Positions 4,750 to 9,544 of a DNA stretch of 9,544 nucleotides are shown piece by piece. Source of the stretch: a bacterium (GTDB taxonomy: Bacteria > JAHJDO01); the NCBI GenBank assembly GCA_030611945.1, contig JAUWOV010000066.1, forward strand, positions 1 to 9,544, read 5' to 3'. Under the pieces are notes generated by a model. The model was given only the letters and a program-made list of their open reading frames with translations. It was not told the DNA's origin and did no database searches. The position numbers were made by a program, and so were the translations under genes. Each line of letters opens with the position of its first letter. Position 1 is the stretch's first letter.

Positions 4750-5226
4750 CTATTTAATTGCTTTCCCAATTTTTTTTATAGAAGCTACAAAATTCTTATA
4801 ATCAATTTCAAGAAATTTCATGCTCTTCCCTGTTCTTTTTTTTATCTCTTCAATAAAAATTCCATTTTCATTAACAAGCTTTTCTCCGCGATAGACCTTG
4901 CTTATGGAACATGAAGGGGAACGCACTATGCCAATTATTATTTTATGATCTATCCCATTGAAGTCTTTCATTGTTTTTACCACGTTTTGAGCTAATCTAC
5001 TGCAATGCTCTCTGAATCCTGTTATTTTTTCATACTCATCCTTTGTCATTTTAGCCCGCTTCCCAAGAAAAGAGAATTTAGGACATGGCAGCTGCTCCAA
5101 CAAAACATCATGTTCAGACATTAATTCACCAAGAGCCTTTACTATATTCACATCAGGTTTAGAAAGTCCGTCTGCTCTAACTTCAGGATTTAATAGACAA
5201 TGTGATACAAACAGAATAGTTTTCAT
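4750..5226 (-). CDS. TudS-related (DUF523-like) putative Fe-S desulfidase
   Basis: This 158-residue cytoplasmic protein begins KTILFVSHCLLN (Cys10), has QLPCPK (Cys48), FREHC (Cys75) and a late SPSC motif (Cys106). The pattern SHCxLN ... QLPCP ... SPSC resembles TudS and its relatives. In TudS, three conserved cysteines hold a catalytic [4Fe-4S] cluster that removes sulfur from 2-thiouracil. Activity here is inferred from the motifs and the substrate is unknown. Longer in-frame starts exist, but the ATG at 5226 is preferred. It overlaps the upstream TGA as ATGA, has GGGA about eight bases upstream, and places SHCLLN at the normal N-terminus. It is the last gene of its unit and is followed by the tRNA promoter. 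Confidence 0.65.
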   Translation of the reverse strand: MKTILFVSHCLLNPEVRADGLSKPDVNIVKALGELMSEHDVLLEQLPCPKFSFLGKRAKMTKDEYEKITGFREHCSRLAQNVVKTMKDFNGIDHKIIIGIVRSPSCSISKVYRGEKLVNENGIFIEEIKKRTGKSMKFLEIDYKNFVASIKKIGKAIK

Positions 5227-5909
5227 ATGCATTTCCCGCTCAACGGACAATTTTTGCACACTGGTTTTGTTTTGCAGTAATTCTTACCTAACTCAACTAG
5301 AAGAGCGTGAAACTCCTTATAAACTTCTACATCTTCTGGAATACTGCTTTCAAAAAATTTCTTTAATGACTCATAGTCCAAGTCATCTGTTAACTGCAGC
5401 CTTTCACAGATACGTTTTGTATAAGCGTCTATTACAAAAGAAGGTTTTCCTGCAGCATAAAGAATTATTGAATCAGCGGTTTCCGGACCAATGCCATTAA
5501 GTGACAGTAATTCAGCCCTCAGAGAACAAGTTTCTTTATTGAATAGTCTCTTTAAGCTGCCGTTATATTCTTTGAAAATGTAGGCGCATATACCCTTTAG
5601 TCTTCTGGCTTTCTGCCTGTAGAAACCTGTCGGCTTTACGTAGACTTCTAACTTCCCGAGAGGAAGATTAGATATTTTACATGGATCCAGAACATGACTA
5701 CTCTTCAAATTTTTAATAGCTTTTTCTACATTTCTCCAAGCTACCTGCTGGGTAAGAATTGCACCGACAACTACTTCAAAAGGAGTCTCTGCCGGCCACC
5801 AGTGCTGCGGATCGAAATGGGAAAGAAGGAATGTGTAAAACTCATAAGGATTAAGAAGTGGTTGTCTCTTTGACAGGTTCTTCAAGTTTCTTCTCTTCAG
5901 TTTCCTCAA
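5223..5909 (-). CDS. Endonuclease III-related HhH-GPD DNA glycosylase (COG2231 type)
   Basis: This is a base-excision DNA repair protein of the endonuclease III superfamily. Numbered from the TTG at 5909 (228 residues), it has HWWPAETPFEVVVGAILTQ (36-54), a helix-hairpin-helix LNGIGPETAD (137-146), the catalytic-type Asp161 in VIDAYTKR, and a C-terminal Cys cluster (212, 218, 221, 227) for a [4Fe-4S] cluster. The position of the Nth catalytic lysine is Glu (GPET), so a lyase activity like that of Nth is unlikely and a monofunctional glycosylase is more plausible. Cys spacing is x5-x2-x5 rather than the x6-x2-x5 of Nth. The start is uncertain: only TTG codons (5909 or 5885) precede the conserved region, and both overlap the upstream coiled-coil gene. 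The lesion recognised is unknown. Confidence 0.8.
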   Translation of the reverse strand: MRKLKRRNLKNLSKRQPLLNPYEFYTFLLSHFDPQHWWPAETPFEVVVGAILTQQVAWRNVEKAIKNLKSSHVLDPCKISNLPLGKLEVYVKPTGFYRQKARRLKGICAYIFKEYNGSLKRLFNKETCSLRAELLSLNGIGPETADSIILYAAGKPSFVIDAYTKRICERLQLTDDLDYESLKKFFESSIPEDVEVYKEFHALLVELGKNYCKTKPVCKNCPLSGKCI

Positions 5910-6385: not shown

Positions 6386-6628
6386 CTATCCTCTAACCAT
6401 TTTTGCCCCGCATTTAGGACAGTTGACATTGTAACATGGGGATCCTGCTTGATGCGGAATTTTTGTTCCGCAGCTTGGGCAAACGCAGTTTCCGCTTGGA
6501 CCTGCTCCAGGACGTGTGCCGTCCATTCTGCCGCGTCCTCCGCCTTGTCCTGCGCCAACTCCGCCTCCCATACCTCTTCCTGTTCCCGGACCCATTCCTC
6601 CTGGACCTGTTCCATCTCCTCTTGGCAT
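6386..6628 (-). CDS. Gly-rich zinc-ribbon small protein, likely partner of the MinD-type ATPase
   Basis: The 80-residue protein starts with a Met-Pro-Arg-Gly-Asp, then a Gly/Met/Arg-rich low-complexity stretch (residues 4-46) resembling the MPRGDGTGPxGMGPxTGRG opening of small proteins found beside MinD/NBP35-like ATPases in anaerobes. Residues 47-80 carry CVCPSCG, a middle Cys and CPKCG, forming a zinc-ribbon- or rubredoxin-like metal site. The ATG at 6628 has AGGAG about eight bases upstream and follows the ATPase stop by 16 bp, so it belongs to the same operon. An overlapping frame of similar length is open but looks like compositional shadow. Function is unknown; a metallochaperone, scaffold or redox adaptor for the ATPase is inferred from context. 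Confidence 0.75.
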   Translation of the reverse strand: MPRGDGTGPGGMGPGTGRGMGGGVGAGQGGGRGRMDGTRPGAGPSGNCVCPSCGTKIPHQAGSPCYNVNCPKCGAKMVRG

Positions 6629-6644
6629 TTGATCATCTCCTATG

Positions 6645-8498
6645 TTATTGATTTATGTTAATAAGAGAGTTTATTTTCTTCCAAATCTGTTTTATGCTTT
6701 TTACGACAGCTCCGTCTTCTGTATATTCAACAATGGACAATGCCTTCATTTGAGCTTCAGTCACCTTTTTATCGTACGGTATTGTTCCAATAAATTCAGC
6801 ATTATATTCATTGGCTATCTCTTTGATTTTTTCGGTCATATCTATATTCAGGTCATATTTGTTTACCACAACTCCGGACTTAACTCCAAAGTGTCTTGTT
6901 ACATCAAGAATGCGCTTCATATCATGAATACCAGATACAGTCGGCTCTGTAACAATCAAAGCATAATCAGCGCCTGTTATAGAAGCTATCACAGGACAAC
7001 CGGTTCCCGGAGCGCCGTCTATTATTAACTTGTTCTCATTGATCTCTGAAGCTGCATCGCATGCTTTGTCTCTTACTAATGTAACCAGCCTTCCTGAATT
7101 TTCTTCAGCTACTCCGAGTTTTGCATGAGTCATTGGCCCAAATCTTGTTTCCGAGACAAACCATTCTCCATTAACAGCATCTTCTACTTTTACAGCCGAA
7201 TCTTTACAAACAAGATAACATACACCGCATCCTTCACAGGCAATAGGATCAATACGGCATAATTCTTTTTCGAACTCGCTGTTGTAGTTTTCTATAGCCA
7301 AAAACCGACATGCGTCCTTACATCCATTACAGCCTGTGCATTTTTCCGGATCTATTTCAGCAATCACACCACCGCTAAAATTCCCTCTTTCTTTAATTTG
7401 CGGAGCTAAGAGCAGATGCAGGTCGGCTGCATCCACATCGCAGTCGGATATTATCGTCTTTTTGGCCAGAGCAACAAAAGAAGCTGTTAAAGAAGTTTTA
7501 CCTGTTCCGCCTTTTCCGCTTATAATAACTAATTCCTTTGGTTTATTTGCTGTAGAAAAAGCTGCAGGCTTGGCTTTTTCTATTTTTTTATCATCTGTTT
7601 TTTTTTCTTCTTTTTCCATAGAAGAATATATCTCTTTAACAACTCTCCTTTCCTGTGCTAATTTCTCTATCCTCTGCGCAATACTCTCAAACAACTTTCT
7701 ATACTGAGGAAGCTTTTCAAATACTATATCCCCTACAGAATAGACCTCTGCTATTCTCCTATCATCCGGAATCTCTCCTATAATTTCCAACTGAGCTTTT
7801 TTGCAGTATGCTTTGAGATTATCATCCATATATTCAGCGCGGTTAACCAAGACTACAGGTTCCTGATTTATCTTACGGCTCATATCCACAGCCAGTTTTA
7901 GATCATTTACTCCAAAGGGCGTGGGATCCGTAACAAGCACACACAGATCAACATCCTTTACTGTTTCCACAACAGGACATGCGGTTCCCGGAGAAGAATC
8001 AAATATATTTATTCCATTGCCGGCGCATTTTTTAACTCTTTTGATCAATCGGGGAGACATTCCTCCCTCACCGGTTTCAAGAAGCGCGTAATGGAAATCT
8101 ATTGCGCCGCTTTTCCCATGTTTCAAGACCCCTATTTTCTTATTCTCTTCAATAATTGCATCCGTTGGACAAACAATCTTACAGGCTCCGCAGACATGAC
8201 ACAATTGAGGAAAGAACAGAACCTTATCTTTTATTACAGCTATTGCATTATAATGACATGCATCCTGGCATTTACCGCATTTAATGCATTTCTCATCATC
8301 AACACCAACAGGCGTCATCAAGGTAATATCTTCTTCCTTATCAATACGGGGCTTGAGAAAAAGATGACCGTTCGGCTCTTCAACATCACAATCAAGATAA
8401 CAAACATTCCTGCCCTTTTTTGAAAAAGCAGTTGCTATATTAGTAGCAACAAAAGTTTTGCCTGTTCCGCCCTTACCGCTTGATATCGCTATATTCAT
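6645..8498 (-). CDS. Fused tandem MinD-superfamily P-loop ATPases, each with an inserted 2x[4Fe-4S] ferredoxin domain
   Basis: From the ATG at 8498 the protein is 617 residues and consists of two homologous halves. Half 1 has the deviant Walker A SGKGGTGKT (7-15), DCDVEE (36-41), two ferredoxin Cys sets (71/74/77/81 and 100/103/106/110) and SSPGTACPV (168-176). A charged linker (about 284-320) joins half 2: SGKGGTGKT (327-335), DCDVDA (352-357), Cys sets (387/390/393/397 and 421/424/427/431) and GAPGTGCPV (495-503). Such ATPases usually occur as two adjacent genes; here one uninterrupted frame covers both. MinD-type ATPases act as dimers with the signature Lys contacting the partner's nucleotide, so the fusion may be a built-in dimer. 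Role is unknown, plausibly Fe-S or metal cofactor handling or electron delivery. An upstream ATG at 8534 (+12 residues) is possible, but family proteins start at MxIAxxSGKGG. Confidence 0.9.
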   Translation of the reverse strand: MNIAISSGKGGTGKTFVATNIATAFSKKGRNVCYLDCDVEEPNGHLFLKPRIDKEEDITLMTPVGVDDEKCIKCGKCQDACHYNAIAVIKDKVLFFPQLCHVCGACKIVCPTDAIIEENKKIGVLKHGKSGAIDFHYALLETGEGGMSPRLIKRVKKCAGNGINIFDSSPGTACPVVETVKDVDLCVLVTDPTPFGVNDLKLAVDMSRKINQEPVVLVNRAEYMDDNLKAYCKKAQLEIIGEIPDDRRIAEVYSVGDIVFEKLPQYRKLFESIAQRIEKLAQERRVVKEIYSSMEKEEKKTDDKKIEKAKPAAFSTANKPKELVIISGKGGTGKTSLTASFVALAKKTIISDCDVDAADLHLLLAPQIKERGNFSGGVIAEIDPEKCTGCNGCKDACRFLAIENYNSEFEKELCRIDPIACEGCGVCYLVCKDSAVKVEDAVNGEWFVSETRFGPMTHAKLGVAEENSGRLVTLVRDKACDAASEINENKLIIDGAPGTGCPVIASITGADYALIVTEPTVSGIHDMKRILDVTRHFGVKSGVVVNKYDLNIDMTEKIKEIANEYNAEFIGTIPYDKKVTEAQMKALSIVEYTEDGAVVKSIKQIWKKINSLININQ

Positions 8499-8502
8499 AA
8501 TT

Positions 8503-8820
8503 TTAGGTATGTTCCTTTCCAAACCATCCATCATAAAATCTCTTCAAGTGCTCATAAAATTCCTTATCTGCTGTCTCTCTTTCTACATCTTCTTCTTTAA
8601 AAGAATATTCATACCCTGCGCAATAGCTCATCAGAATATCATTGGCATGAGTTATCTTTTTAAACATCTCCTCGCACTCCTTTTTCTTATCGTCAGAGCA
8701 TCTATCAGGATGGTGTTTTAAAGCAAGCTTCCTATACGCATTCCTTATCTCTTTCAACGTTGCTGTTTCTTCTATGCCTAACAGCTTCCGCGCTTCGTCA
8801 ATCTCTTTAAAATTTGCCAT
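8503..8820 (-). CDS. Short J-domain (DnaJ-like) co-chaperone
   Basis: J-domain proteins stimulate the ATPase of Hsp70 (DnaK) and recruit it to a client. From the ATG at 8820 this is 105 residues: EARKLLGIEETATLKEIRNAYRKLALKHHPD shows J-domain helices and the essential HPD (37-39), followed by helix III (EEMFKKITHANDILM). The roughly 35 residues after that are acidic and aromatic (ending RFYDGWFGKEHT). It has no Gly/Phe region and no zinc fingers, so it is a minimal class C J protein, probably dedicated to one client. A GTG start at 8838 would add six residues; neither start has a strong ribosome binding site. It overlaps the small secreted-peptide frame by 14 bp and ends 4 bp before the fused ATPase, making that ATPase the obvious candidate client. 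Confidence 0.88.
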   Translation of the reverse strand: MANFKEIDEARKLLGIEETATLKEIRNAYRKLALKHHPDRCSDDKKKECEEMFKKITHANDILMSYCAGYEYSFKEEDVERETADKEFYEHLKRFYDGWFGKEHT

Positions 8821-8974
8821 TTTTACAGTATTGTCCACCAGTTAAACATCCAGTTTTTTCGCACAATTTATCCCATTGGGATTGTATCGTTGTAGCATGC
8901 AAAGGCTCAAAATTTCGAGCCCCTATCATTAAGCATACGAATATTGCTAGAGTAAAAATTTTAAATAGTCTCAT
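8807..8974 (-). CDS. Predicted small secreted Cys-containing peptide (55 aa)
   Basis: This short frame has an ATG at 8974 and TAA at 8807-8809. Residues 1-27 read as a signal peptide: a basic start MRLFK, a hydrophobic core IFTLAIFVCLMIGA, and a candidate cleavage site after PLHA (position 27). The predicted mature part is about 28 residues with three Cys (38, 43, 50), a Trp and a Gly-Gly, ending NGKF. Cys14 does not fit a lipobox. AAAGGT lies 10-15 bases upstream, a weak ribosome site, and a promoter-like pair lies just before it. The stop overlaps the J-protein start by 14 bp, as in coupled genes. I recognise no homologue. Supporting evidence is the textbook signal-peptide layout filling an otherwise empty 156-bp gap. 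Confidence 0.5.
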   Translation of the reverse strand: MRLFKIFTLAIFVCLMIGARNFEPLHATTIQSQWDKLCEKTGCLTGGQYCKNGKF

Positions 8975-8994: not shown

Positions 8995-9544
8995 TTATAA
9001 TATTAAATCCTCATCTCTATTTTCAATTAACCTGCGCTCTCTTTGTAGCTCTTTCTTTAGTTCTTCCTCTGTTGGCAGGTAAAGCATATACTTTGAAGCA
9101 AACAATTGCTTGCTTTTATTAAGAACTGAGTATCTAGCTATGGCATCATTTTTTTCTGAGCATAAAATCAGACCAATGGTTGGATTGTCACCATCTAATT
9201 TGTCCACCTCTTCAAACATTCGAACATAGCCATCCATCTGGCCAATATCCTGATGAGTAAGCTTGCCGATTTTAAGGTCAATAAGCAGAAAACATTTTAG
9301 TATGTAATTGTAAAAGACCAAATCTATATAAAAATCCTCATCCTCAAAACGTATTCGTTTCTGACGGGCAACAAAGGAGAAACCTTTGCCGAGTTCCAGA
9401 AGAAATTGATGAAGATTGCTGATAATAGCAGACTCAAGGTTAGACTCACGTAGTTTCGGCGCGTCCGGCAAATTAAGAAATTCCAGAATATAAGGATCTT
9501 TAAGAACATCCACAGGTTCCAGAATATCCTTTTCTGTTTTTGCC
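8995..9544 (-). CDS. YhcG-type PDDEXK nuclease (DUF1016), C-terminal part; 5' end outside the window
   Basis: The frame is open to the right edge (at least 182 codons), so the true start lies beyond 9544; a GTG at 9513 is internal. The visible part is the PDDEXK nuclease domain of the YhcG family. It shows ESNLESAIISNL, FVARQKRI, DFYIDLVFY with a catalytic-type Asp, then LIDLKIG (Asp-x-Lys) about 15 residues later, GQMDGYV, and the conserved IGLILCSEKND ending in a helical YLPTEEELKKEL tail. Complete members have an extra N-terminal helical domain of comparable size. YhcG-like proteins often sit near restriction-modification or other defence genes, but nothing in this window shows such a link. 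The gene ends in TAA at 8995-8997. Confidence 0.9.
   Translation of the reverse strand, partial: AKTEKDILEPVDVLKDPYILEFLNLPDAPKLRESNLESAIISNLHQFLLELGKGFSFVARQKRIRFEDEDFYIDLVFYNYILKCFLLIDLKIGKLTHQDIGQMDGYVRMFEEVDKLDGDNPTIGLILCSEKNDAIARYSVLNKSKQLFASKYMLYLPTEEELKKELQRERRLIENRDEDLIL
8997..9026 (-). promoter_or_regulatory. Putative promoter of the secreted peptide/J-domain/ATPase operon
   Basis: On the minus strand TTGAAA (-35, five of six positions, plus-strand 9021-9026) and TATTAT (-10, five of six, 8997-9002) are 18 bp apart. The promoter lies inside the last codons of the YhcG-type gene. The start would fall near 8990, so the leader to the ATG at 8974 would be very short. If it is inactive, the operon would depend on readthrough from the nuclease gene. 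Confidence 0.4.

Follow-up and report, generated by a model that had tools for sequence, protein, structure and literature searches.

A fused pair of paralogous ferredoxin–MinD-type ATPases, probably of the Orp3/Orp4 type, encoded by a single bacterial gene

In the window, by which we mean the whole stretch of 9,544 nucleotides analysed here, a single gene encodes two complete ATPase units, each of which combines a MinD/ParA-type ATPase bearing SGKGGTGKT and DCDV motifs with an inserted 2x[4Fe-4S] ferredoxin of eight cysteines and a PGTxCPV motif. We propose, with a probability of roughly 0.6, that this gene specifies a covalently joined pair of Orp3- and Orp4-type ferredoxin-ATPases acting in the assembly of Fe-S or metal-sulfide cofactors. 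The fused form is new; the paired Orp3/Orp4-type family, which we take to be COG1149 ('MinD superfamily P-loop ATPase with inserted ferredoxin domain'), is already known, though poorly understood. Several lines of evidence support the proposal: the single frame with both units complete; the presence of fused homologues in at least three phyla, always in the order A-B and with split partners in the same order; the near-invariance of the ATPase and cluster motifs in both paralogues; the adjacency of split pairs to MrpORP, together with the published co-purification of Orp3 with Orp4 and their loading by MrpORP; the Fe-S- and metal-related operon of a genus-mate; the orp-like context of a second group of fused genes; and the match of the modelled cores to ApbC/MinD/ParF or NifH/HypB folds.

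On the minus strand, the frame stays open without interruption from 8534 to 6645 (629 codons). The ATG at 8498 is its likely start, yielding a 617 aa product, since the genus-mate gene is also 617 aa long and the family alignments begin at this ATG. Hence, the original prediction of one frame with two complete units at 6645-8498 fits this start, and the KGGTGKT, DCDV, PGTxCPV and eight ferredoxin cysteines that it named were each recovered where it placed them in both units (Table 1). On the fused protein, Pfam recognizes two CbiA/MinD-type ATPase stretches along with several 4Fe-4S dicluster matches. The units align to each other with 31% identity (E 2e-36), which marks them as genuine homologues. 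The resemblance of the DNA at the two P-loops, which had been offered as a further sign of common descent, is present (20 of 23 bases) but is expected from the common protein motif and constitutes no independent evidence.

Table 1. Features of the fused gene and its immediate neighbors; residue numbers count from 8534
Feature	Coordinates	Strand	Remarks
DnaJ-domain protein, directly upstream of the fused gene	8503..8838	-	Several related fused loci also have a similar J-protein nearby
Fused A-B ferredoxin/MinD-type ATPase gene	6645..8498	-	617 aa from the likely start, ATG 8498; alternative start 8534, 629 aa
Unit A, N-terminal, Orp3/Orp4-type paralogue A (probable)	7659..8498	-	
Unit A deviant Walker A, SGKGGTGKT	8454..8480	-	Both Lys in 65/65 A units
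Unit A ferredoxin insert, 8 Cys (C83-C122)	8169..8288	-	Cys 83, 86, 89, 93, 112, 115, 118, 122; invariant
Unit A PGTACPV	7971..7991	-	Cys186, 7 residues past Walker B-type Asp179
Charged linker, about 40 codons	7539..7658	-	Constraint weaker than in units A/B
Unit B, C-terminal, paralogue B, stop codon included	6645..7538	-	
Unit B deviant Walker A, SGKGGTGKT	7494..7520	-	Both Lys in 64/64 B units
Unit B ferredoxin insert, 8 invariant Cys + Cys426	7206..7340	-	Cys 399, 402, 405, 409, 433, 436, 439, 443; extra Cys426
Unit B PGTGCPV	6990..7010	-	Cys513, 7 residues past Asp506
Small Gly-rich four-Cys zinc-ribbon-like protein	6386..6628	-	DUF5320-like start (below Pfam cut-off); genes of this kind also occur beside other A-B loci, fused and split

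As the window comes from a draft metagenome assembly, judged without reads, the fusion might be suspected of being an assembly or frameshift artefact. However, the independent assemblies of two genus-mates (G003 and G004) contain the same full-length frame at 89% identity to that of the window, and a third (G001) shows it up to the contig end, where it is cut off; in a further genus-mate (G002), the fused gene is absent. Between the window and the genus-mates there are no indels, even in the linker, and dN/dS is 0.07-0.11 in units A and B as against 0.23-0.54 in the 40-codon linker. This is the pattern expected of two constrained domains connected by a translated, loosely constrained linker, and both units are under strong purifying selection. 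Taken together with more than 15 further fused homologues, these observations lead us to reject the artefact, the probability of which is negligible; a check for a frameshift or assembly error in the linker found none, and the fusion is genuine.

Counting fused against split versions, as the original prediction had suggested, revealed that the fusion recurs and is not unique to the window. In a broadly spread sample of 385 genomes, with matches at E up to 1e-40 taken as homologues, 126 bear a homologue, and strict ORF calling among the matches listed finds a fused gene in 15 of these 126: four from the window's genus, one of which is truncated, plus G340, G117, G049, G275, G222, G265, G290, G039, G192, G318 and G122. 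The split class was assigned by default, i.e., where no full-length match occurred among the matches listed. Seemingly fused long open frames in G031, G005, G107, G277, G383, G256, G313, G138, G193, G435 and G413 resolved as split under strict ORF calling and were dropped from the count. Within the phylum of G049, 7 of the 33 homologue-bearing genomes encode a fused version (G049, G398, G391, G396 with two copies, G395, G419 and G429), and, overall, fused homologues span at least three phyla: this one, that of G275 and that of the window's genus. In three genomes (G039, G222 and G318) a fused gene coexists with a split pair, and G117 has the fused form while G254 of the same genus shows separate A and B matches. 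Such a patchy distribution makes horizontal transfer of the fused gene likely. One scan of viral contigs recovered no relative and another only a 48-residue match.

The order of the units is always A-B in the fused homologues, and almost every locus examined has A next to B in one and the same order. In the split pairs, A lies upstream of B with an overlap of ~4 bp in 24 of 40 cases, a sign of translational coupling. Thus, the expectation that these ATPases are usually encoded by adjacent separate genes was borne out by the homologue search and strict ORF calling in the sampled genomes.

Regarding their origin, the two units had been attributed to an ancient tandem duplication. A tree built with 65 A and 64 B units, drawn from many families, separates A from B completely (support 1.0, branch 1.49), and this clean split shows A and B to be ancient paralogues, with a duplication that precedes the diversification of the family and is far older than the fusion. 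Hence, the antiquity of the duplication stood, whereas its placement in this gene did not: the split implies that the window gene joined two pre-existing partners rather than being itself tandemly duplicated. A recent tandem duplication is likewise rejected, as A and B separate across the whole family. In a concatenated tree, the fused proteins other than that of G192, which lies among the split pairs, fall into two firm groups (of 11 and 9 members); the two groups join as one clade with an SH-aLRT of 91 (99 without long branches), and at least two changes of state between fused and split are seen. In the tree of A alone the two groups fail to join, and an AU test does not reject all fused proteins as one clade (p 0.63). 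One fusion event or a few are possible on these trees.

The assignment of the fused protein and the split pairs to the Orp3/Orp4 type, which forms part of our main proposal and carries its probability, is based on locus structure and the published description of these proteins. Of the sampled genomes, 26 have a match over the cut-off of the MrpORP model (NF041136); comparing the positions of both matches places MrpORP ≤1.4 kb from a split pair in 18 of them, an arrangement also seen in the orp locus, which argues that the split pairs are of this type. Ordinary Mrp genes adjoin many other split pairs (e.g., in G031, G343, G181, G058 and G217). Around the Mrp match on contig C15 of G281 we noted an open frame of 24,252 aa, which is probably masked or N-rich sequence. 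Orp3 and Orp4 have been described as 41% similar proteins with two ferredoxin motifs each; Orp3 purifies together with Orp4 and Orp8, and all three receive Fe-S clusters from MrpORP (PMC6345978). Both fused units likewise display a deviant Walker A ATPase with an inserted 2x[4Fe-4S] ferredoxin, and the paralogues keep comparable company: MrpORP beside the split pairs, and an Mrp and two NifX-family genes beside the fused gene of the genus-mate.

In the window itself, the DnaJ and small zinc-ribbon protein genes are the only adjacent genes of context, the NifX genes being on another contig. The recurrence of similar flanking genes at several related loci suggests that a dedicated co-chaperone (the J-protein) and a small metal protein (the zinc ribbon) may belong to the system. 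Elsewhere, the minus strand of the window encodes a 2-thiouracil desulfurase (DUF523-like) family protein (4750-5259), the frame of which overlaps that of an upstream Endonuclease III-like HhH-GPD DNA glycosylase (5223-5909) with a terminal four-Cys run (CKTKPVCKNCPLSGKC) typical of its own [4Fe-4S] cluster, and, close to the contig end, a YhcG-type PDDEXK nuclease domain fragment (8995-9513). At the genus-mate locus (L098), the fused gene is preceded on the same strand by genes for Fur, DUF5320, ARMT1-like, Mrp (PF10609), methyltransferase, CoA-binding, DnaJ and a second methyltransferase protein, and followed by those for a small zinc-ribbon protein, a thioredoxin-like protein, PNPOx, a pyridine nucleotide-disulfide oxidoreductase, two NifX-family proteins and a NifU-like scaffold; here, the DnaJ, thioredoxin and first methyltransferase were assigned by reading the sequence. 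The Mrp, NifX-family, NifU-like, Fur, DUF5320 and thioredoxin components are those that support our proposal. The window's genome carries other genes of this operon at L137 (G000 contig C91, 259-10801), namely those for a methyltransferase, two radical SAM proteins, PNPOx, the oxidoreductase, two NifX-family proteins and Fur, followed by a metal ABC transporter and a TonB-dependent receptor, an arrangement indicating that the operon was rearranged within the genus. In the second fused group, the gene has two NifX-family genes and DUF5320 on one side and a sigma-54 activator on the other, matching the sigma-54 regulation of the orp operons (PMC3897727).

Across the 65 A and 64 B units, the signature lysine, the P-loop lysine, the DxD and all eight ferredoxin cysteines are invariant, and the PGxxC cysteine is retained in 64/65 A and 64/64 B units. 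In the SIMIBI class, the nucleotide site of each subunit is completed by the signature lysine of its partner; hence, both sites would be intact in an A-B sandwich. The PGxxC cysteine lies seven residues past the Walker B-type Asp, a register that it shares with NifH Cys132 in a C-terminal alignment of low column confidence; alignment to NifH through the ferredoxin insert is meaningless, and the C-terminal part alone was used. An AlphaFold model of the fused protein from five input sequences (pLDDT 53, pTM 0.42) is too weak for the geometry by which the nucleotide sites would face each other within one chain. Fold matching was confined to the ATPase cores of this low-confidence model: core A matches ApbC, ParF and MinD, and core B NifH/HypB, with Z ~19-22, the best match being ApbC (Z 22.3, rmsd 2.9 over 203 residues).

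From architecture, conservation, spread and context, we infer the following mode of action. Units A and B would fold together into a pseudo-symmetric intramolecular ATP sandwich, in which the signature lysine of each reaches the nucleotide of the other. The ferredoxin inserts would carry up to four [4Fe-4S] clusters, probably loaded by an Mrp/NBP35 carrier, and the binding and hydrolysis of ATP might gate the transfer of electrons or clusters to the NifX-family metal-sulfide proteins. The fusion would then fix the 1:1 ratio and the pairing of A with B, which are elsewhere achieved via translational coupling of overlapping genes. A bridging metal site may also be present. A more specific version, which we hold to be doubtful, is that the PGTxC cysteines of A and B meet on the pseudo-twofold axis of the single chain to hold a fifth, asymmetric metal or Fe-S site; the protein would then be a naturally occurring nitrogenase-type Fe protein in single-chain, hetero form, with the four ferredoxin clusters feeding this site internally, and would act on the NifX-family metal-sulfide proteins.

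Two other readings of the architecture need to be weighed against this mechanism. The fused chains could instead pair between molecules (A-A', B-B' or A with the B' of another chain), with the fusion merely tethering the units; this would accord with the homodimers formed by NBP35/Mrp proteins (PMC6345978) and with the interdomain geometry left unfixed by the AlphaFold model. Against it, A and B keep to adjacent positions and one order, Orp3 is recovered with Orp4, and the flexible linker, of roughly 35-40 residues, permits an intrachain fold. Moreover, ArsA, with two homologous ATPase halves connected by a flexible linker, pairs them within one chain (PMC2963123), which is a precedent for the one-chain working of two joined halves; on balance, we consider pairing between molecules rather unlikely. 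Alternatively, the protein might be a MinD/ParA-like switch localizing a complex, with its ferredoxin clusters serving as a redox sensor. Its best sequence matches are indeed archaeal MinD/ParA-type proteins, ORP proteins have been proposed to act in septum/Z-ring positioning (PMC4672049) and MrpORP is mainly polar in the cell (PMC6345978). However, no MinC, MinE, ParB or FtsZ gene was recognized beside the fused loci, where the neighbors are Fe-S/metal genes, and the curated MinD models fall well short (minD_bact 79.6 bits against a cut-off of 212.9; minD_arch 113.4 against 201.75). As the near-total conservation of the cysteines also speaks against it, a positioning role seems improbable.

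Returning to the joined Orp3-Orp4-type pair, the recurrence of a genuine fusion suggests that A and B ordinarily function together as matched partners in the assembly of metal clusters; such a fusion is strong evidence that the joined proteins act as a 1:1 pair. This is of consequence for a family that is widespread in anaerobes, nearly always paired and almost without assigned function. The fused form offers one chain to express, to mutate half by half and to crystallize, making the use of ATP and clusters by an Orp3/Orp4-type pair, a long-open question, directly testable.

Among known systems, the Mrp/NBP35 proteins (ApbC, MrpORP) are Fe-S-linked deviant Walker A ATPases of the same superfamily. 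However, Mrp and MrpORP carry, after PPGTGDEP, a CxxC that binds a bridging, inter-subunit [4Fe-4S] cluster and defines membership (PMC6345978), whereas A and B have PGTxCPV and the inserted ferredoxin and lack this CxxC. The contrast originally drawn with the Mrp/NBP35 homodimers was thus the wrong comparison, the more so as the closest characterized proteins, Orp3 and Orp4, already form a hetero-complex (PMC6345978). With the NifH/BchL Fe proteins, the modelled cores share the fold (Z ~19-20) and the units a conserved cysteine in the Cys132 register. They differ in the ferredoxin insert and nonidentical halves; of the two NifH cluster cysteines, Cys97 has no invariant counterpart among the 65 A and 64 B units, and the nifH model scored far below its cut-off. 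ArsA (R773) is similar in linking two ATPase halves in a single chain, a likeness of architecture alone and not of homology: intragenic duplication gave rise to ArsA, which acts on As(III)/Sb(III), whereas the window gene joined two old paralogues with ferredoxin inserts. The nearest counterpart is the Orp3-Orp4 pair (DVU2103-DVU2104) of the Desulfovibrio vulgaris ORP complex, with its two related proteins of two ferredoxin motifs each, paired genes, MrpORP and NifX-family neighbors and, as in one fused group, sigma-54 control. In D. vulgaris these are two separate genes, as against one polypeptide in the window, the clade of which has Mrp, DnaJ and NifU-like genes instead of MrpORP.
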